Assembly: GCA_022797935.1 (NCBI GenBank)
Contig: JAAWLO010000005.1
Location: 1 to 63,576, forward strand
Length of the DNA: 63,576 nt
Source of the DNA: Oscillibacter sp.
GTDB taxonomy: Bacteria > Bacillota > Clostridia > Oscillospirales > Oscillospiraceae
Direction: 5' to 3'
Part shown: one piece after another, positions 54,831 to 63,576 of the stretch
Numbering within the stretch: position 1 is the stretch's first letter
Layout: each line of letters opens with the position of its first letter
Notes under the pieces: generated by a model
Database searches by the model: none
What the model saw: the letters and a program-made list of their open reading frames with translations, nothing else
Told to the model about the DNA's origin: nothing
Position numbers and translations under genes: made by a program

Positions 54831-56063
54831 ATGAACAGCAAACAAACCGCTCTCTTTCACCGGGATTTCACCCTGGTGGTCATTGGGCAAATCATCTCCC
54901 TCTTCGGCAGCGCCATCCTCCGCTTTGCCCTGCCGCTGTACCTCCTGCGGCAGACTGGCTCCGCCGGTCTCTTCGGTATCGTGGGGGCGGCCGCCTTTCT
55001 TCCCGCCGTGTTGTGTTCTCCCATTGGCGGCGTGGCGGCGGACCGGGTGAACAAACGGAATATCATGGCGGCCCTGGACTTCTTTACGGCGGGCCTGATC
55101 TTCCTGTTTGCGCTCCTGCTGGGACGTGTGCCTCTGGTCCCGCTGATGGTCATCTGCCTCATGCTGCTCTACGGCATTGCCGGGGCCTATCAGCCCGCCG
55201 TGCAGGCCAGCATTCCCCTTCTGGCGCAACCGGAACAGCTGACCCGCGCCAATGCCGTCATCAGCATGGTCAACACCCTGTCCGGCCTGCTGGGACCGGT
55301 GGTGGGCGGCGTACTGTTCGGCGCTTTCGGCATCCATCCCATTTTGTGGGTCAGCATTGCCTGCTTCTTTCTCTCCGCCGTGATGGAACTGTTTATCCAC
55401 ATGCCTCACCAGACCCGGGCGGCGGCGGGCAGCATCCTGTCCACAGTGCGGCAGGACCTGGGCGAGAGCTGGCGCTTTATCCGCCGGGAACGGCCGGTCT
55501 TTCTCTCCGTCATGCTGATCCTGGCGCTGTTCAACCTGGTGCTGTCTGCTGCCTTGATTATCGGCATTCCCGTGGCGGTGGTACAGGTGCTGGGATTAAG
55601 CGACAGCCGCCTGGGCTTCACCCAGGGCGCTATGGGTTTGGGCGGCTTGTCCGGCGGGCTTCTGGCCGCCTGTCTGGGCGCGCGCCTGCGTCTCCGGTCA
55701 GGAAGTGCCGTGCTGCTGTTTGCCAGTCTGACGGCGGCGGCCATGGGTGCGGTCCTGCTGCCGGGAATTTCGCCGGTTTTAGGCTGGTGGGGCGTGACCG
55801 CTATGAGCTTTGCCGTTATGGTCCTGTCCAGCCTGCTGATGGTGGTACTCAGCACCGCTGTTCAAGGGCAGACGCCTCCGGAACAGCTGGGGAAAGTAAT
55901 GGCCTTTATCATGGCGGTGTCCAACTGCGCGTCCCCTCTGGGGCAGGCGGTCTACGGGGCCTTGTTCGAGACCTGTCCTGCCTGGTCTGTCCTGCTGGGC
56001 GCGGCGGCGGCAGCGGCTTTAACGGCGCTTTACTCCCGAAAAGCCTTTCGCGCTTTGGGCTAG
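54831..56063 (+). CDS. MFS-family efflux transporter
   Basis: This 410-residue protein has twelve predicted membrane helices and the MFS motif A-type loop GGVAADRVNKRNIMAALD between helices 2 and 3. The N-terminus FTLVVIGQIISLFGSAILRFALPLYL and the overall plan match multidrug or macrolide exporters of the MefA/MdtG type. It is paired with a TetR repressor and preceded by a matching operator. AAAAAGGAG precedes the ATG. Its TAG stop codon is the first three bases of repeat copy C, so the original C-terminus may have been longer; all twelve helices are retained. Confidence 0.88.
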   Translation: MNSKQTALFHRDFTLVVIGQIISLFGSAILRFALPLYLLRQTGSAGLFGIVGAAAFLPAVLCSPIGGVAADRVNKRNIMAALDFFTAGLIFLFALLLGRVPLVPLMVICLMLLYGIAGAYQPAVQASIPLLAQPEQLTRANAVISMVNTLSGLLGPVVGGVLFGAFGIHPILWVSIACFFLSAVMELFIHMPHQTRAAAGSILSTVRQDLGESWRFIRRERPVFLSVMLILALFNLVLSAALIIGIPVAVVQVLGLSDSRLGFTQGAMGLGGLSGGLLAACLGARLRLRSGSAVLLFASLTAAAMGAVLLPGISPVLGWWGVTAMSFAVMVLSSLLMVVLSTAVQGQTPPEQLGKVMAFIMAVSNCASPLGQAVYGALFETCPAWSVLLGAAAAAALTALYSRKAFRALG

Positions 56064-56224
56064 GCCTTGTTTGGAACTTAGCGGAATGCCGGATTGGGGC
56101 AGACTTTTTGCCGGACAAGGCGATTGGATGCGGGAACTCTGACGGATTTCCAGTCCATTCAACGCAGTCCTGGCGGAAAAAGACGCCCCAAGACGGCGTT
56201 TTGCCATTTTTCAAACAAGGCATA
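56061..56224. repeat. Palindromic dispersed repeat, copy C (164 bp)
   Basis: This copy starts TAGGCCTTGTTTGGAAC and ends TTTTTCAAACAAGGCATA, with the same internal blocks as copies A and B (GGAATGCCGGATTGGGGCA, AACGCAGTCCTGGCGGAAAA). Its first three bases form the stop codon of the MFS gene. Confidence 0.85.
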
Positions 56225-56235
56225 AAGAAGACAAC

Positions 56236-56270
56236 ACGCGCCCGGCTCAGGAGGTCCAAGCCGGGCGCGT
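56236..56270. terminator. Hairpin terminator between MFS and PfkB genes
   Basis: ACGCGCCCGGC and GCCGGGCGCGT form a perfect 11-bp stem. The minus-strand side is followed by GTTGTCTTCTTTATG. It lies between convergent genes. Confidence 0.7.
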
Positions 56271-56327
56271 ATGGCGGCAGAATGGCGTCTGCCCTTATAA
56301 ACTGGGCAACGGCCTTCGGACTGCCGG

Positions 56328-57209
56328 TCAATAGAAGGCCTTGAGATAATCCTCCACATCCGCCCGTGTGCCCTGGAAGGGGCCTGGAGTCTCCATCTTC
56401 AGGGAGACCAGCGCCGTGGCGGTCCGCAGAGCGGTGGGGATGTCCTGGGTCAAGCGCTCGTTGATGTAACCAGCGAAGGTCGTGTCTCCCCGTCCCGTAC
56501 GCCCGGAGAGATTCCGCGCCTTGATGGGGCAGGTAAACATCTCCCTGCCATCGTAGACCAGCACCTCTGTGTTGTGGGTAATGAGAATTTCCTGGGCGCC
56601 CCAGCTGTGAAGGACCCTGGCGGCCTCGGCCCGGTCCGTAAAACCGGTGAGGATTTCCGCCTCAGCGGCGTCGGTCTTCAGGAAGCGGATGTACGGCAGC
56701 ATCTCCTTCTTGGCCGCCCAGTCATGGTAAACCATGCCGCCGTTTTCCGCCCAGCGAAGCATACACTGCACATCCACAGCCACCATGGCCCGTTTTGCGG
56801 CGAAGGGAATGAGTTCGTCGGGGATATCGCCCCCCACAAGGCCCGCCAGATGCCAGATTTTCGCGTCAATCTCCTCCGGAATTTCCTCCGGCCGGTAGGG
56901 GTCGATGACGCTGTCCACGGTGGAGGTCCGGCGCTCCCGGTCCGGGGTGTGGTAGACGTTCTTTGTGACAAAGGAGTGGGTGCTGTGCAGGGGAAATACC
57001 GTAACGTTGGGCGCGGCGGCAAAGGCGGCCGCCAGGTCCGTTTGCGCGGTGTCCGCCTTGGGCAGAACTGCGGTTTTGTGCCCCAGGTTGGCGGCGGCAA
57101 AGCCAGAGTAATACACCGCTCCTCCAACCGCCTGGACGGTCGTACCGTCAAAATCCACGTTGGTGTCCTGGGCCGTCTCGCCAATAATCAGGGTATGAAA
57201 GGTACTCAT
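56328..57209 (-). CDS. PfkB-family sugar kinase
   Basis: This 293-residue kinase has the ribokinase fold: GGAVYYSGFAAANLG near residue 29 (sugar-binding Gly motif) and SGRTGRGDTTFAGYINERL near residue 225, the PfkB signature containing the catalytic Asp and the anion hole. Members phosphorylate sugars, nucleosides or sugar phosphates with ATP. The gene overlaps the PHP gene by four bases and is downstream of a LacI regulator, facing a cluster of HAD phosphatases. The sequence does not identify the substrate; a sugar or sugar phosphate is likely. Confidence 0.87.
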   Translation of the reverse strand: MSTFHTLIIGETAQDTNVDFDGTTVQAVGGAVYYSGFAAANLGHKTAVLPKADTAQTDLAAAFAAAPNVTVFPLHSTHSFVTKNVYHTPDRERRTSTVDSVIDPYRPEEIPEEIDAKIWHLAGLVGGDIPDELIPFAAKRAMVAVDVQCMLRWAENGGMVYHDWAAKKEMLPYIRFLKTDAAEAEILTGFTDRAEAARVLHSWGAQEILITHNTEVLVYDGREMFTCPIKARNLSGRTGRGDTTFAGYINERLTQDIPTALRTATALVSLKMETPGPFQGTRADVEDYLKAFY

Positions 57210-57937
57210 TTGCCTGTCTCCTTCCGCAGAGCCTCGTCAGCCTCTACAAATTCCTGAAATGCCGGGCTCCAGAGTTGAAACCGGCGGGTTTCAATCATGC
57301 GCTTATACGCAAAGGAGTCCTGAACCCGCTCTGGAAGAAGGACGGCGGTACGGGCCTCGTCGCCATCCCGGTGGGTATCGGACCCAGCCAGACGGAGGTA
57401 TTCCGGATGCCGGCGGCAGAGGGCCAGGGCCTTGTCATTGTTGTTCTCGTGGCGGGGGTTGCCATTGATGATCTCCACGCCGTGGACAGCCGTCTCTTGA
57501 ACCGGGGCACTGCCTTTGCGGAAGGGATGGGCATGGATAATCAGAACCTGATTGTGGAACTTGTCGAAGAACTCTTGGGCGCTCATACAGCAGACGTAGG
57601 GGTTGGAGCGGAGCCACTGCTCGTCAATGCCGTAGACTAAATAGTCGTTGTCGTTCTCTGGGAAGCGGAGTTCCGCTCCCAGGATGACATCCAGCCCCAC
57701 CTCGCGGCCCCGTTTTTGGGAGGCGTGATAGCCGCTGAGGTAGTGGTCCATCACCTGGTCCCAGTTGTGTTCCTTGTCCACGCGGGAGAGATATTCCGGA
57801 TGAAGATGGTCCGTAACCACCAGACCGGCGAAGCCGCTGCGGGCATAGCGGTCCACTACGCCGGCCGCGTAGAGGTGGCCGCACTTACTGGTCTCGGCGG
57901 TGTGGGTGTGCGGGTCGTAACGGTAAGCAGTCATCAT
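57206..57937 (-). CDS. PHP-domain metal phosphoesterase
   Basis: This 243-residue protein has the PHP fold. The metal motif RYDPHTHTAETSKCGH is near residue 8, GLVVTDHLHPEY near residue 40 and GAELRF near residue 87. HNQVLIIHAHPFRKG is near residue 130, and RLAGSDTHRDGD near residue 183 ends the motif set. PHP proteins hydrolyse phosphate esters with two or three metals. It overlaps the LacI stop (ATGA) and the PfkB gene, so the three are co-transcribed. A sugar or nucleotide phosphate substrate is plausible. Confidence 0.85.
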   Translation of the reverse strand: MMTAYRYDPHTHTAETSKCGHLYAAGVVDRYARSGFAGLVVTDHLHPEYLSRVDKEHNWDQVMDHYLSGYHASQKRGREVGLDVILGAELRFPENDNDYLVYGIDEQWLRSNPYVCCMSAQEFFDKFHNQVLIIHAHPFRKGSAPVQETAVHGVEIINGNPRHENNNDKALALCRRHPEYLRLAGSDTHRDGDEARTAVLLPERVQDSFAYKRMIETRRFQLWSPAFQEFVEADEALRKETGK

Positions 57938-58962
57938 GATTCCCTCTTTCCATGCAGTTCGTGCAGCGCGCGGCAGGTGCTGCGTTTAATCAGCGTGGGC
58001 ATCAGGATTTGATGAACATAACCCTGGGTGCCGTTTTCAATTTTATCCCGGAGCATATCCACCGCCTGGACTGCCATTTCCCGCTTGGGCTGCTCCACCG
58101 TGGTCAGCTCAATGCGGGGCAGCGCGGTGGAGGAGATATTGTCGAAGCCAATAAGGCTCAGCTGGCCGGGGATGTCAATATGGGCTTCGTCCGCCGCCTT
58201 CAGCAGGCCCAGAGCGTTGGAATCTGTGGAGGCAAAGATGGCGGAACAGTCCACCGGCTGGGCAAACAGTTCCTTGGCCAGCTGGTAGCCGTTGTTGATG
58301 GAGGAACGGGTAAACTCGCTGTTGAAAAACCGGGGCGTCAGTCCCAATTCCTGACAGGCCCGGATATACCCCTCCGCCCGGAGCTGATGCGTGGCCGTGT
58401 GGCGGCGTCCAAAATAGAGGATGTCCCGATGGCCCAGGTCGAAGAGGTAGCGGGTGCCAATGTAAGTTCCCCGGCTGTTGTCCACAGCCACGTAGCTCTG
58501 GGGCTGGTCCCGGAGATTCTCGCTGAGGAAGACTGTGGGCACCTGGTCCGTGAAGGCCCGGATATTTTCGTAGGTTTTGGAGCTCTGGGGTACAATGAGG
58601 ATGCCGTCCACCTGACGGCTGAGGAGGAGCTTGACAACGGTTTTCTCCTGTTTCAGGTCCGGCCCGGAGTTGCAGAGCATGATGTTATACCCATGGCCCC
58701 GGGCGCACATCTCCGCGTAATAGGCCAGCTCCGACATGAACTGGTTGTCAATGGAGGGCACCACAAAACCAATCAGACCCGTGCGCTTGGTCACCATGGA
58801 GCGGGCCACATAATTGGTGGTATAACCCATCTCATCACAGAGCTTAATGATACGCTCCCGGGTGTCACTGCCAATCTGGTGGCTGCCGGACAGGGCCCGG
58901 GAGACCGTGGCGTAGGAGACGCCGGCCGCCTTGGCGACATCCTTCAGAGTAACACTTTTCAT
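57934..58962 (-). CDS. LacI-family regulator of the HAD/PfkB/PHP locus
   Basis: This 342-residue LacI-family protein has the headpiece VTLKDVAKAAGVSYATVSRALSG near residue 4 and a ligand domain with IGFVVPSIDNQFMSELAYYAE, DGILIVPQSSKTYE and IFASTDSNALGLLKA. It is divergent from the HAD operon. GCAAACGTTTCC and GTAAACGTTTAC, classical LacI/CcpA-type palindromes with a central CG, lie in the shared control region. It probably represses both directions until a sugar ligand binds. Confidence 0.88.
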   Translation of the reverse strand: MKSVTLKDVAKAAGVSYATVSRALSGSHQIGSDTRERIIKLCDEMGYTTNYVARSMVTKRTGLIGFVVPSIDNQFMSELAYYAEMCARGHGYNIMLCNSGPDLKQEKTVVKLLLSRQVDGILIVPQSSKTYENIRAFTDQVPTVFLSENLRDQPQSYVAVDNSRGTYIGTRYLFDLGHRDILYFGRRHTATHQLRAEGYIRACQELGLTPRFFNSEFTRSSINNGYQLAKELFAQPVDCSAIFASTDSNALGLLKAADEAHIDIPGQLSLIGFDNISSTALPRIELTTVEQPKREMAVQAVDMLRDKIENGTQGYVHQILMPTLIKRSTCRALHELHGKRES

Positions 58963-59010
58963 AGTTTTGTCCTTTCCGCCCGGATGGGGGCGACAGAGGC
59001 AACGGATGAA

Positions 59011-59028
59011 ACCGCAAACGTTTCCGCT
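59011..59028. promoter_or_regulatory. LacI-type operator near the LacI gene
   Basis: CCGCAAACGTTTCCG is a LacI-type imperfect palindrome with a central CG, 50 bases before the LacI ATG. Confidence 0.65.
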
Positions 59029-59189
59029 TCATTTTTTTGGAACCGGCCCAAAACGGACCCGTCCAGATTGTCAAGTATTGTCAAGTAAAGAATATCCGAT
59101 TTTTCCGGCAATGTCAATAACAATCTGGCCTTTTCCCCGCCTTTGGGCAGAAAAACGAAAATCAATGGAACTCTTTGGCGTTTGGCATA

Positions 59190-59246
59190 TTGACAAAGGA
59201 CTCGCATTTCCTTTAGAATAAACCTGAAAAGACCGTAAACGTTTAC
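59190..59246 (+). promoter_or_regulatory. Promoter and operator of the HAD operon
   Basis: TTGACA (59190-59195) and TAGAAT (59214-59219) are 18 bases apart. The perfect palindrome GTAAACGTTTAC (59235-59246) lies just downstream of the -10, positioned as a roadblock. A direct repeat TTGTCAAGTA occurs twice near 59069-59090. Confidence 0.75.
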
Positions 59247-59320
59247 AGGCGCGGCCCGCTGGCTGCTGAAGACCGGATACGGTTGCGAAAAGCCGTGAAT
59301 ACGCAGAAGGAGGAGTTCTC

Positions 59321-60055
59321 ATGACCCCCGATATCAAGACGATTTTCTTTGACGTTGGCAACACGCTGCGCATTGTACTGAAAGAACAGGACTTCATTGA
59401 CCAGGCCGAAGCCGGCCTGATGGAGCTGATTCAGACGAAGGAAACCCACGATGAGCTCTTTGCCAAACTGGAGAAGCGGTGGAAGAACTATCGCAAGCAG
59501 TCCAAGCAGATTCTGCTGGACGCCTCTGAGGGCGAGCTGTGGACTCAATACATGCTGCCGGATTATGACCCGAATTTGATCTTTGCCAACGCCGCCCGGC
59601 TCACCCGTCTTTGGCGGGACCATGATGGCCGCCGCGTTGCCCGGCCCGACGCCGTCTCCACCATCAAGGAACTCCACGCCAGAGGATATACGCTGGGCAT
59701 TATCGCCAACACCGTCACCGAGACGGAGATTCCCGACTGGATGGCCGCCGACGGCGTGGCCCAGTGTTTCAAGACCACCATCCTCTCCTCCAAGGTCCGC
59801 CTCCGCAAGCCCAATCCGGAAATCTATCATCTGGCCTGCCGCTGCATTGGCACCCCGGAGGCCAACTGCGCCTACGTGGGCGACAATCCGGTGCGGGACG
59901 TGGAGGGCACCCAGGCCGCAGGCTTCGGCATGATGATCCGGATTGATGAGCCGGATACCCTGAATACCGAACACGCTACCGGCAAGGAATTCACCCCGGA
60001 CCATGTGATCACCGCCCTGTCGGAGCTGCTGAACATCTTCCCGCCCCGCACTTAA
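59321..60055 (+). CDS. HAD-family hydrolase, first of three tandem paralogues
   Basis: This 244-residue HAD protein has motif I as FFDVGNTLRI near residue 9, lacking the second Asp that usually acts as acid/base. Motif II is GIIANTVTETEIPDW near residue 127, the Lys is in LRKPNPEIYHLA near residue 164, and motif IV is AYVGDNPVRDVEGTQAAG near residue 187. It shares its whole layout with the next two genes. GGAGGAG precedes the ATG. It is the first gene of the LacI-controlled operon. The substrate is probably a sugar phosphate; catalysis may be slow or different because of motif I. Confidence 0.83.
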   Translation: MTPDIKTIFFDVGNTLRIVLKEQDFIDQAEAGLMELIQTKETHDELFAKLEKRWKNYRKQSKQILLDASEGELWTQYMLPDYDPNLIFANAARLTRLWRDHDGRRVARPDAVSTIKELHARGYTLGIIANTVTETEIPDWMAADGVAQCFKTTILSSKVRLRKPNPEIYHLACRCIGTPEANCAYVGDNPVRDVEGTQAAGFGMMIRIDEPDTLNTEHATGKEFTPDHVITALSELLNIFPPRT

Positions 60056-60068
60056 AAGGAGGTCCGCT

Positions 60069-60806
60069 ATGGATACGACCAAACGCTACAAAGCCGTGTT
60101 CTTCGACTTGGGCGGCACCCTGCGCATCGCGCTCTTGGAAGAACCCTGGATGCGCCACGCCCGGCGGAAGCTGGGGGAAATTGCCGGTTCCCCTGTACCC
60201 TATGAGGAATTTTACCAGATGATTGAGGAGCGCTATGAGCCCTACCGCAAATGGGCCTTGGGCGAAAACAAGGAATCCAACGACGAAGAGCTGTGGTGCA
60301 AATGGCTGCTGCCGGATTATGACCAGACGCGGGTCCGGCAGGTCTGCCATGAGCTGAGCTTTCAGTACCGTCAGTGCAAGGGCCGCCGGATCGTGGTGGA
60401 TGGCGGCAGGGAGGTCATCCGGGGGCTCCATGAGCGGGGCTACAAGCTGGGTATCATCTCCAACCTCATTGGCGAGAACGAAGTTCCCGACTGGCTGGAG
60501 GAAGACGGTCTGGCTCAGTATTTTGATTCCGTCATTCTCTCCTCAGTCTGCGGCCTGCGCAAGCCCTGTTCCGAGATTTACCGCCTTGCCTGCCGGGATA
60601 TCGGAGCGGCGCCGGAGGACTGCGTGTCCATAGCGGACAATGTGAAGCGGGACATCACCGGTGCGAAAGCCGCCGGTATCGGGGCCAATATCATCTTTGC
60701 CTCTCCGGAGAAAAAACATCCGGTGACGTTTACAGAAGAAAACCGGCCCGACGCGGTGGTCCACGATTTCCGGGAGATTCTGGACCTGCTCCCCCGGCTG
60801 AATTGA
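60069..60806 (+). CDS. HAD-family hydrolase, second tandem paralogue
   Basis: This 245-residue paralogue has motif I FFDLGGTLRI near residue 12, again with Gly where the second Asp is expected. Motif II is GIISNLIGENEVPDW, the Lys is in GLRKPCSEIYRLA, and motif IV is VSIADNVKRDITGAKAAG, where the usual GD pair is AD. AAAAGGAGG precedes the ATG and only 13 bases separate it from the first paralogue. The three genes probably arose by tandem duplication and may act on related sugar phosphates or form a complex (inference). Confidence 0.82.
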   Translation: MDTTKRYKAVFFDLGGTLRIALLEEPWMRHARRKLGEIAGSPVPYEEFYQMIEERYEPYRKWALGENKESNDEELWCKWLLPDYDQTRVRQVCHELSFQYRQCKGRRIVVDGGREVIRGLHERGYKLGIISNLIGENEVPDWLEEDGLAQYFDSVILSSVCGLRKPCSEIYRLACRDIGAAPEDCVSIADNVKRDITGAKAAGIGANIIFASPEKKHPVTFTEENRPDAVVHDFREILDLLPRLN

Positions 60807-60931
60807 CAGCATTTTGTGAAGCCAGCCCTCCGGGCAGGCCTCATGCCGCTTCCTCCCTCCCTTTTCCAGCGGTACTGCTGATGCTGGGGCTATCCCAACG
60901 TATATATTTTGAATTAGGAGACTGATAGGGA

Positions 60932-61708
60932 ATGAATACCGATATCCGTTATATCTTCCTGGACCTGGGGGGCACCTTCCGGGTCATTGACGAGGATCCG
61001 GCGTATCTCGCCTCTGCCCGGGCCAAAATTGCCGGGCTCTGCGGCGTGGAGACGGAAAATCCCAGCCAGTGGTTTGAGGAAGTCATTAACAAGCGCTATG
61101 ACAAATACCGGGAGTGGGCTTTGAAGTTCATGTGCGAGGCCCCGGAGGAAATCCTCTGGACCCGCTGGCTGGCCTATGACATGGACCCGGCGCGGATTCG
61201 GGAAAACGCCGCCGAACTGACCTACCAGTACCGCCAGACCAAGGGCCGCCGCACGGTGGTAAAGGGCGGCGCAGAGACCGTCAAAGAGCTCTTTGCCCGC
61301 GGCTACACATTGGGCATCATCAGTGACCTGGTGGGCAGGCGGGAAGTGGACGAGTGGCTGGATGCCGACGGCCTCCGGCCCTATTTCAAAACCGTTCAGC
61401 AGTCCTCCATCACTTACATCCGCAAGCCCGGACCCGCCATCTATTACTACGCTCTGGAGGAAGTGGGCGCCCAGCCGGAGAACTGCTGCTACGTGGGCGA
61501 CAACCTGAACCGGGACATTGTGGGCGCCAAGGCCGTGGCGTTCGGCATGACGGTGGCGGTACAGTACAACCGGAACAAAGCCCTGAAGCTGACGGAGGAG
61601 AACATGCCTGACGGCAAAATTTACACCTTCCCGCAGCTGCTGGACATCTTTCCCCAGCGGGGCAAGGTTGATGCCGGCAAGCTCATTGCCCCGGACGACG
61701 GACAGTAA
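60932..61708 (+). CDS. HAD-family hydrolase, third tandem paralogue
   Basis: This 258-residue paralogue has motif I FLDLGGTFRVI near residue 9, also without the second Asp. Motif II is GIISDLVGRREVDEW, the Lys is in IRKPGPAIYYYA, and motif IV is YVGDNLNRDIVGAKAVAFG. It is closest to the second paralogue (YQYRQxKGRRxVV is shared). TTAGGAG precedes the ATG, after a 125-base gap without a gene. Its C-terminus is longer than that of its siblings. It is followed after 33 bases by the permuted phosphoglycerate-mutase-like gene. Confidence 0.82.
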   Translation: MNTDIRYIFLDLGGTFRVIDEDPAYLASARAKIAGLCGVETENPSQWFEEVINKRYDKYREWALKFMCEAPEEILWTRWLAYDMDPARIRENAAELTYQYRQTKGRRTVVKGGAETVKELFARGYTLGIISDLVGRREVDEWLDADGLRPYFKTVQQSSITYIRKPGPAIYYYALEEVGAQPENCCYVGDNLNRDIVGAKAVAFGMTVAVQYNRNKALKLTEENMPDGKIYTFPQLLDIFPQRGKVDAGKLIAPDDGQ

Positions 61709-61741
61709 ATTTCATCTTACGAACAGCAGGAGGTTTTTTCT

Positions 61742-63310
61742 ATGGCAGAAGTCAAACGCGGCGGCGCTCAACTGGCGGAGGCCGTCAAGAAGGCATACGA
61801 GCTTGGCCAGGACGACTACCACCTGGAACCCCTGGTCCTGGTGGAAAACGGAAAACCGGTGGGCAAGATCTCCGACGGCGACGCGGCTATTTTCTGCTGC
61901 CGCCGGGGCGAGCGGGAAATTGAGCTTACCGAGATGTTCACGGAGGAGGGCTTCGATAAAGCGGAGCGCCGGAAACTCCAGGATTTACACTTCGTCATCA
62001 TGACCATGTATCACGACAAATTCAAGGACCTGCCCATTGCCTTTGCCCCCGCCAAGGTGACGAAACCCTTGGCCCAGGTCCTCAGTGAGGCCGGAAAGAC
62101 CCAGTTCCACTGCGCCGAGAGCGAGAAATTTGCCCATGTGACCTTTTTCTTCAACGGCGGTGAAAACAATCCCTTCCCCGGGGAGGACGACGCCTGCATC
62201 CCCTCTCCCAAGGGCATTGACTTTGACCAGCAGCCGGAGCTGTCTCTGCCCAAAGTGGCGGACACGCTTATGGATGCCCTGGGCAAGTATGATTTTGTCG
62301 TCACCAACTTTGCCAACGGCGACGTCATTGGCCACACCCAGAACACGGAGGCCAAAATCAAGGCCTGCGGCTACGTGAGCCAGTACCTGGACAAGGTGGT
62401 AAACGACGCCCTGGGCAAGGGCTATGTGGTGGCCATCACCGCCGACCACGGCAACATTGAAAAGCTCTACACCGCCGCCGGGAAACCCGACGGGGCCCAC
62501 ACCACCAATCTGGTGCCCTTCATCCTGATAGACCCTGCCGATCCCAGCCCGATTGCCCTGCGGGACGGCTCCCTGGGTGATGTGTCCCCCACGGTGCTGG
62601 ATGTTCTGGGTATCCCGCAGCCCGCCGAGATGGACGGCAAATCCCTCTGCCCGGAAAAGGAGTGGGGGCAAAATCGGAAAATGCTTCTCATCATCTGTGA
62701 CGGATGGGGCCTGGGAACCGGAGACGGCGGCGACGCCATTCATCTGGCAGACACCCCCTATTGGGACGCTCTGCTGGCAAATCAGTCCTGGTCTAAGCTT
62801 CATGCCTCCGGCGAGTTCGTGGGTCTGGGCACAGGCAAGGCCGGAAACTCTGAGGCGGGCCACTCGAACTTGGGCGCAGGCCGCTGCGTGATGCAGGACG
62901 ACGTCCGTCTGGACGCCGCTGTGAAGGACGGCAGCTTTAAACAGAATCCCATCTTCCTCCAGGCCATTGAACACGCCAAGAAGAACGGTACAGCCCTGCA
63001 CCTGCTGGCCTATCTGACTTACAAGTCCTCTCACGGCTGCATCGACTATCCCCTGAACATCTGTGAGATGGCCCGAGACAACGGTCTGGACCGGGTATAT
63101 CTTCATATCATCTTCGACGGCCGGTCCACAGACCCCGGTTCCGCCCCCGCCCTGCTGGCGGAAACGGACGCCCGGCTGGAGGCCATCGGCGTGGGCCGTA
63201 TGGTAGACGGCGTGGGCCGGGGTGTGGTTTTGGACCGGGATAAAAACTACGACAAAGTAAAGCGTGCCTACGACGCCATGGTCGAGGGCGCAGGCACGCA
63301 GTACGAATAA
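61742..63310 (+). CDS. Circularly permuted phosphoglycerate-mutase-like protein (iPGM superfamily)
   Basis: This 522-residue protein contains every major block of cofactor-independent phosphoglycerate mutase in the wrong order. Residues 12-305 match the normal C-terminal part (AVKKAYELGQDDYHLEP, SEKFAHVTFFFNGG, NFANGDVIGHTQN, ITADHGN, AHTTNLVPF). Residues 312-516 match the normal N-terminal part (LLIICDGWGLG, GNSEAGHSNLGAGR, FDGRST, LDRDKNYDKV). The metal ligands are all present: Asp194, His198, His253, Asp320, Ser370 (nucleophile), Asp235 and His236. Substrate-site Lys129, His431, Arg461, Arg493 and Arg499 are kept, but the usual DGRD Asp is Ser462 and the FNFRxDR motif is FCCRRGER. GGAGG precedes the ATG. 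Its position in a LacI-controlled sugar-phosphate operon leaves open mutase activity on another substrate. Confidence 0.9.
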   Translation: MAEVKRGGAQLAEAVKKAYELGQDDYHLEPLVLVENGKPVGKISDGDAAIFCCRRGEREIELTEMFTEEGFDKAERRKLQDLHFVIMTMYHDKFKDLPIAFAPAKVTKPLAQVLSEAGKTQFHCAESEKFAHVTFFFNGGENNPFPGEDDACIPSPKGIDFDQQPELSLPKVADTLMDALGKYDFVVTNFANGDVIGHTQNTEAKIKACGYVSQYLDKVVNDALGKGYVVAITADHGNIEKLYTAAGKPDGAHTTNLVPFILIDPADPSPIALRDGSLGDVSPTVLDVLGIPQPAEMDGKSLCPEKEWGQNRKMLLIICDGWGLGTGDGGDAIHLADTPYWDALLANQSWSKLHASGEFVGLGTGKAGNSEAGHSNLGAGRCVMQDDVRLDAAVKDGSFKQNPIFLQAIEHAKKNGTALHLLAYLTYKSSHGCIDYPLNICEMARDNGLDRVYLHIIFDGRSTDPGSAPALLAETDARLEAIGVGRMVDGVGRGVVLDRDKNYDKVKRAYDAMVEGAGTQYE

Positions 63311-63360
63311 AGAATGGCATTGACGGATCCACGTTTCAAGGAGTAAAATGGGATGCAGAT

Positions 63361-63391
63361 GCAGGCCGGAAGGGATGGCCTTCCGGCCTGC
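63361..63391 (+). other. Perfect hairpin before the transketolase gene
   Basis: GCAGGCCGGAAGG and CCTTCCGGCCTGC form a perfect 13-bp stem with a 5-base loop and no following T-run. A small frame with AAGGAG (63348-63425, 25 codons) runs through it and ends just inside the transketolase start. It may be a leader, a processing site or a weak terminator. Confidence 0.5.
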
Positions 63392-63417
63392 AAAATCAGG
63401 AAAGGAAGTAACCGCTT

Positions 63418-63576
63418 ATGAATGAAAAGAAATGCCGGGAACTGGCGGCGGAAATCCGGCTGGAGACGCTGAAAGTGATCCACAGCCGGGGCTTTGGCCA
63501 CGTGGGCGGGTCCATGGACCTGGCGGACCTGATGGCGGTGCTGTACGGGGAGGTCATGAAGTTCGACCCGAAGAAC
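63418..63576 (+). CDS. Transketolase N-terminal subunit, 5' part
   Basis: The first 53 residues (LAAEIRLETLKVIHSRGFGHVGGSMDLADLMAVLYGEVMKFDP; cores RLETLKVIHSRG and GHVGGSMDLADLMAVLY) match the thiamine-diphosphate-binding half of split transketolases. The gene runs off the right edge. GGAAAGGAAG precedes the ATG. Split transketolases are two adjacent genes in many Clostridia. Its position after the phosphoglycerate-mutase-like gene suggests a pentose- or ketose-phosphate role for this locus. Confidence 0.88.
   Translation, partial: MNEKKCRELAAEIRLETLKVIHSRGFGHVGGSMDLADLMAVLYGEVMKFDPKN

Follow-up and report, generated by a model that had tools for sequence, protein, structure and literature searches.

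In canonical iPGM, the phosphoglycerate mutase (PGM) represented by the structures 1ejj, 1o98 and 1o99, the N-terminal half of the chain precedes the C-terminal half. Circular permutation has been described for other enzymes: human PGM3, one of the alpha-D-phosphohexomutases, is also permuted within its enzyme family, in a way that moves the phosphoserine loop (PMC5570346, available text), and eukaryotic glutathione synthetase is likewise a natural permutant, from a family unrelated to iPGM (PMC2876114, available text). A second group of described systems concerns cyclic 2,3-diphosphoglycerate, which the available text of PMC10690619 and PMC12136491 places in hyperthermophilic methanogens only. 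Its synthetase (cDPGS) is reversible in M. fervidus, where it could make ATP from cyclic diphosphoglycerate, ADP and phosphate, and appears irreversible in M. thermoautotrophicus (PMC1224877, available text). The accessible part of PMC12136491 states that the enzyme favours synthesis, which counts against a backward run.

Here we describe a protein, cpPGM, that is encoded in a stretch of 63,576 nucleotides from an Oscillibacter genome (the window, meaning the whole stretch analysed) and in which the order of the two iPGM halves is reversed. It belongs to a real, ancient, circularly permuted iPGM subfamily, which is a widespread variant of a known family. The earlier note on this DNA knew of no described permuted member, and we likewise found none in the available text of open-access papers, a body of literature that leaves aside subscription papers and preprints. 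In particular, no permuted iPGM is described in the available text of PMC2876114, PMC6957218, PMC9487903, PMC11046441 and PMC5570346, and the string 'permut' is absent from PMC2964296, a paper on bacterial PGM evolution, and from PMC12077085 and PMC5382265.

The permuted chain and its active site

The earlier note had reported a single uninterrupted frame of 522 residues that carries the C-terminal blocks of the family first and the N-terminal blocks second, and both statements were confirmed. The frame (Table 1) opens with an ATG that has AGGAGG 8 bases 5' of it. The iPGM profile TIGR01307 matched with 454 bits (cut-off 331), split into two stretches, with profile positions 213-503 falling on residues 11-302. 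A phmmer comparison with the PDB paired residues 13-303 with 1ejj 218-509 and residues 313-521 with 1ejj 5-213. Both iPGM domains scored above their cut-offs (PF01676, 191 against 24 bits; PF06415, 160 against 27 bits), and positions 133-216 of PF06415 precede its positions 2-133. A better fit of the normal order, which the earlier note had allowed for, was not found, as the profile matches are all split in the swapped order. We therefore regard circular permutation of the window protein as essentially certain and, because the domain order is reversed, file it as a permuted variant rather than as a canonical member of iPGM. Assignment to archaeal-type aPGM was not supported by profile searches, which gave no PF10143 match and only 33 bits for TIGR00306 (cut-off 320).

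Table 1 Features of the window and of the cDPGS loci, with positions, strand and basis of assignment.
Feature	Position	Strand	Basis or remark
PfkB-family sugar kinase	56328..57209	-	
PHP-domain protein	57206..57937	-	21.2 bits, below the Pfam cut-off of 26.4
LacI-family regulator, divergent	57934..58962	-	
HAD hydrolase	59321..60055	+	DVGNT
HAD hydrolase	60069..60806	+	DLGGT
HAD hydrolase directly upstream of cpPGM	60932..61708	+	DLGGT, Gly at D+2
cpPGM (circularly permuted iPGM), 522 aa	61742..63310	+	profile and PDB matches
First part, residues 11-303, canonical C-terminal half	61772..62650	+	TIGR01307, 1ejj
First-part active-site residues D194, H198, D235, H236, H253, K129, R55, R58	61772..62650	+	
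Linker, residues 304-312 (about 9), old C-terminus to old N-terminus	62651..62677	+	1ejj alignment
Second part, residues 313-521, canonical N-terminal half	62678..63304	+	1ejj 5-213
Second-part residues D320, S370 (nucleophile), H431, R461, S462 (replaces Asp154), R493, R499			
Split transketolase N subunit, start only, cut by the window end	63420..63576	+	homologue in L039 matches PF00456
cDPGS (cyclic 2,3-diphosphoglycerate synthetase)	L152:1916-3256; L153:2864-4207; also L185, L186, L189, L191, L202		

In the one pair compared, the linker was 44% identical and the halves were 85-87% identical. The chain opening sits near 1ejj residues 214-217, and in an AlphaFold2 model, built from an alignment of 58 permuted proteins (mean pLDDT 91.6, pTM 0.83), the N-terminus precedes helix 8-20 and the C-terminus follows helix 503-515. 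A short linker connects the old termini, and the new ends lie in the loop that separates the two parts of the transferase domain; going by the model, the two halves can probably still build one two-metal active site. All 22 Foldseek hits with E <= 0.001 were iPGMs. The best of them covered 297 columns at TM 0.50, about half of the chain, because the aligner is sequential and was given a permutant.

Alignment to 1ejj also bears out the earlier statement that all seven metal ligands survive. They correspond to D320, S370, D194, H198, D235, H236 and H253 of the window protein, positions whose role as ligands we assume. We further take H123, R153, D154, R185, R191, R261, R264 and K336 (1ejj numbering, counted along the phmmer alignment) to form the glycerate site. 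Each of the 85 permuted proteins retains the seven ligands and seven of these eight residues, all except D154, which makes 14 tested residues in total. Position 154 is Ser in 85/85 permuted proteins and Asp in all 64 normal rows of our alignment (60 distinct sequences and 4 duplicates; the partial L193 was omitted), the 30 permuted rows of which all have Ser as well. In the same 30 rows Asn259 is replaced by Cys and Phe260 by Arg, and position 262 is Gly. The change from DGRD to DGRS that had been noticed in the window is therefore invariant in the group. The second noticed change, from FNFRxDR to FCCRRGER, stands with regard to the three substitutions just named, but the two arginines of the motif (R261 and R264) are kept and one is gained. 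The hint at a changed substrate that had been drawn from these differences finds indirect backing in the invariant exchange of Asp154 and in the gene context described below.

One invariant active-site change might also be expected of a non-catalytic regulator or pseudo-enzyme. We consider this very improbable, given that the metal ligands including the nucleophile are invariant in 85/85 proteins, and in view of the dN/dS values reported in the next section.

Distribution and other phosphoglycerate mutases

A misassembly that joins two genes, which the earlier note had named as one possible refutation, is contradicted by the best 80 of 226 contig matches and by 12 further genomes from a phylum-wide sample of 398, all of which show the same order. 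All of these 80 loci are collinear in the permuted order, with best segments 62-93% identical. [Clostridium] asparagiforme is represented by its complete chromosome (CP102272.1), and the set further contains isolates of Oscillibacter valericigenes, Oscillibacter sp. 1-3 and entries whose titles name Chloroflexi, Erysipelotrichaceae and Christensenella. Full-length permuted genes (76-93% identity) were present in 13 of 36 other genomes of the same genus, and a 14th carries a partial gene at a contig end. Between the window gene and 11 of these 13 full-length copies, dN/dS was 0.06-0.12. The assembly of the window's genome is fragmented (2.69 Mb, 158 contigs, 84% complete), which would suit an artefact or a chance fusion of two iPGM fragments; the shared order, which extends to distant clades at 39% identity, and the dN/dS values reduce the probability of this to practically nil, and misassembly and pseudogene were ruled out on these grounds.

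Thirteen of the 398 genomes of the phylum (an even sample, own genome included) contained a match to profile A2 that spans the junction (E <= 8e-21), the next matches being half-hits at E >= 2.8e-14. A strict junction query (1e-18) recovered only G438 and the own genome among 391 genomes of the class; as it misses distant members, profile A2 was used in its place. No permuted gene was detected in 23 genomes from other families of the order. In a quick maximum likelihood tree (no bootstrap; permuted sequences rotated, L192 left out), 29 permuted and 64 normal rows were split by one branch with 100% SH-aLRT support, which fits a single origin of the permuted group. Viral contigs yielded six loci at 35-40% identity; the three of these that were placed in the tree have the normal order and group among normal iPGMs. 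Matches on plasmids comprised 44 records, all below 60% identity.

The normal gpmI that the earlier note had proposed to look for is present elsewhere in the window's genome, next to a gene recognised by eye as triosephosphate isomerase. Tests of 13 other carriers (12 from the 398-genome sample, and G438) revealed another PGM in every one: normal iPGM in 10 and aPGM in 4, with both in G438. G487, G568 and G818 contain no second iPGM but do contain aPGM. Matches to PF00300 in 14/14 genomes were discarded as evidence for dPGM, the family being too broad to count. The same-genus carriers G004, G011 and G014 (80, 71 and 91% complete) gave no match to a normal-order iPGM, which may reflect incomplete assemblies or another type of PGM. 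As every one of the 13 tested carriers, like the own genome, has another PGM, cpPGM is unlikely to be the sole housekeeping PGM, and we take it to be an accessory paralogue. The case for this is firmest for the window's genome and the deep clades, and weakest for G004, G011 and G014.

These data bear on a simpler explanation, namely that cpPGM is a plain isozyme that was permuted neutrally and interconverts 2-PG and 3-PG that its own pathway makes or imports. The retained Ser nucleophile and seven glycerate/phosphate-site residues, the TIGR01307 equivalog score above its cut-off and the three same-genus carriers with no normal iPGM match agree with it. Set against this are the strict division at position 154 (Asp in 64/64 normal rows, Ser in 30/30 permuted rows), the additional PGM in all carriers tested and the specialised operons. 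On balance we judge a plain isozyme unlikely.

Gene neighbourhoods and cDPGS operons

The neighbourhoods were compared by mechanical gene calls in the best 80 of the 226 loci, with clusters named from representatives and many contigs short. HAD genes of cluster 0 occur in 72 of these 80 loci, directly upstream of cpPGM in 64, together with a LacI regulator in 61, a PfkB kinase in 51 and parts of an ABC importer in 32. A total of 242 HADs (clusters 0 and 1, L034-L113) were counted upstream of permuted genes; the 232 with a recognisable motif always show DxGxT, with Gly at D+2 in place of the usual acid/base Asp. Searches of positions 55000-63576 of the window returned no Rfam family.

Several other genes recur among these best 80 loci. 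Oscillibacter-type operons continue with split transketolase and Fe-ADH genes in 16 loci (among L034-L056 and L100), five of which also contain a GFO/IDH/MocA oxidoreductase. A membrane pyrophosphatase (27/80) and an MgtC-family gene (25/80) often lie 3' of cpPGM in L059-L113. A variant operon in L057, L070, L097 and L103 has no cluster-0 HADs and encodes a beta-CASP protein of the metallo-beta-lactamase fold; its SBP matches PhnS2 below the cut-off.

A deep clade, whose cpPGM is about 39% identical, shows a different arrangement. In five loci (L152, L153, L185, L189 and L191) the gene order is GntR-cDPGS-SBP-permease-ATPase-cpPGM, and a sixth, L186, has the same order from cDPGS onwards, its contig beginning at that gene. 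L192 and L193 are truncated by contig ends and agree with this operon. The cDPGS of L153 was named by the PDB entries 8ork, 8oru and 9sxb (E about 1e-133), the others by homology to it. Of the 398 genomes in the phylum sample, 8 encode cDPGS, and 7 of these 8 also encode cpPGM. The eighth, G755, shows the end of GntR followed by cDPGS, SBP and permease, and its contig stops partway through the ATPase gene, short of the expected place of cpPGM. Fisher's test for co-occurrence gave p 4.6e-11, a value that overstates independence because the linkage is common to related genomes (four genera). Twelve genomes of one class, which overlap the earlier samples and add no independent count, contain cpPGM in five cases, cDPGS in five and both in four.

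The two arrangements share importer components. The ABC ATPase gene lies immediately before cpPGM in L070, L097 and L103, and of the SBPs compared, those of L057, L097 and L103 are homologous to SBPs of the cDPGS clade (E 1e-35 to 1e-47); the commoner cluster-5 SBPs match these weakly. For one SBP of the cDPGS operon the best PDB match was 4r72, deposited as an Fe3+ transport component, followed by a pyridoxal-phosphate binder. We take 4r72 to be AfuA, a binder of sugar phosphates. Most other named matches of this SBP are ferric-ion binders, which counts against import of a phosphoglycerate.

A third context, again fixed, is seen in four genomes that belong to a single genus: no such importer lies beside cpPGM, and in three of them it adjoins a 570-residue protein that resembles, by eye, a phospho-sugar mutase. 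No cDPGS was detected at E <= 1e-30 in these four genomes or in the window's genome (84% complete), and none in G665, which contains cpPGM on a contig that starts at the ATPase. All three results count against a route through cyclic 2,3-diphosphoglycerate.

The substrate might instead be a sugar phosphate or some other phosphorylated sugar acid, imported by the ABC system and processed with the HADs, PfkB and, in the Oscillibacter-type loci, transketolase. The frequencies of HAD, LacI, PfkB and split transketolase with Fe-ADH genes among the best 80 of 226 loci point in this direction, as do the SBP relatives, which include the pyridoxal-phosphate binder and 4r72. Against it stand the cDPGS linkage of the other deep clade, which suggests phosphoglycerates, and the retention of the arginines of the iPGM glycerate site, a role we assume. 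We consider such a substrate rather unlikely for the subfamily.

Proposed function and comparison with known systems

The observed order, residues, clade, selection and linkage are, as a whole, best explained by cpPGM being an accessory iPGM paralogue that belongs to regulated phosphate-ester uptake operons and acts on 2,3-diphosphoglycerate, to which we assign a probability of about 0.42. Tentatively, and judging from the sequences, it would be a phosphoserine-forming enzyme for imported phosphoglycerate or diphosphoglycerate, perhaps a 2,3-diphosphoglycerate phosphatase. As its counterpart does in iPGM, Ser370 would accept the phosphoryl group at the centre formed by the two metals. The exchange of Asp154 for Ser would remove a negative charge from the place where the canonical enzyme contacts phosphoglycerate at its free hydroxyl, and that of Phe260 for Arg would add a positive one; from the alignment, we propose that this shift in charge could allow a second phosphate to be held. 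cpPGM might then take one phosphate off 2,3-diphosphoglycerate, or isomerise it, to yield monophosphoglycerate for glycolysis. The proposed substrate is most doubtful for the clade to which the window gene belongs, in which cDPGS was not found; the window gene may act on another imported phosphate ester.

For the deep clade it may be speculated that cyclic 2,3-diphosphoglycerate or a relative is imported, that cDPGS runs backwards and makes ATP, and that 2,3-diphosphoglycerate is passed to cpPGM. cpPGM would thereby serve as the phosphatase of a bacterial route that scavenges cyclic 2,3-diphosphoglycerate, a solute of methanogens, or 2,3-diphosphoglycerate itself. An ABC importer would take the compound up, cDPGS would open its ring, and cpPGM would strip off one phosphate to supply glycolysis. 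In the gut clades the tandem HADs could open the ring instead, and the missing acid at D+2 would suit a phosphoanhydride. As a complete scheme this route is doubtful. The profile NF003259, which we take to represent 2-phosphoglycerate kinase, had no match above its cut-off in the eight cDPGS genomes (19.6 bits, below threshold, in G525); the known synthetic route thus looks absent, which fits breakdown better than synthesis.

An enzyme of central metabolism whose active site is drawn from both halves of the chain has survived natural circular permutation and become fixed in a range of anaerobes, with one active-site change in every copy examined. This makes cpPGM a natural test of joint change in permutation and specificity. 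Since the TIGR01307 equivalog scores cpPGM above its cut-off, the altered order and a possible altered role would be hidden in annotations. The subfamily may also offer a handle on how bacteria deal with a compound reported, in the available text of PMC10690619 and PMC12136491, from hyperthermophilic methanogens only.

Compared with canonical iPGM, each half of cpPGM is 43% identical to the gpmI of its own genome, and the two-metal ligands, Ser62, H123, R153, R185, R191, R261, R264 and K336 are shared. cpPGM differs in its swapped halves, in Asp154Ser, Asn259Cys, Phe260Arg and 262Gly, in its separate branch and in its specialised operons. PGM3 belongs to an unrelated family and swaps about 60 residues inside one domain (PMC5570346, available text), whereas cpPGM swaps halves of the whole chain. 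The importers of the AfuABC/PhnSTUV type provide a parallel for the SBP, fused permease and ATPase that likewise adjoin cpPGM, although the listed SBP, permease and ATPase scores of the cpPGM loci fall below the NCBIfam cut-offs. Finally, the methanogen cDPGS (8ork, 8oru, 9sxb) has its counterpart in a protein encoded in the same operon as cpPGM in one deep clade, and not in cpPGM itself. This bacterial homologue spans the full length and has a GTGKRIGKT P-loop. No open-access paper on cDPGS in Firmicutes was found, and in contrast to the methanogen gene, the gene described here is bacterial: its carriers belong to the same phylum as the window, and it neighbours the genes of an ABC importer.
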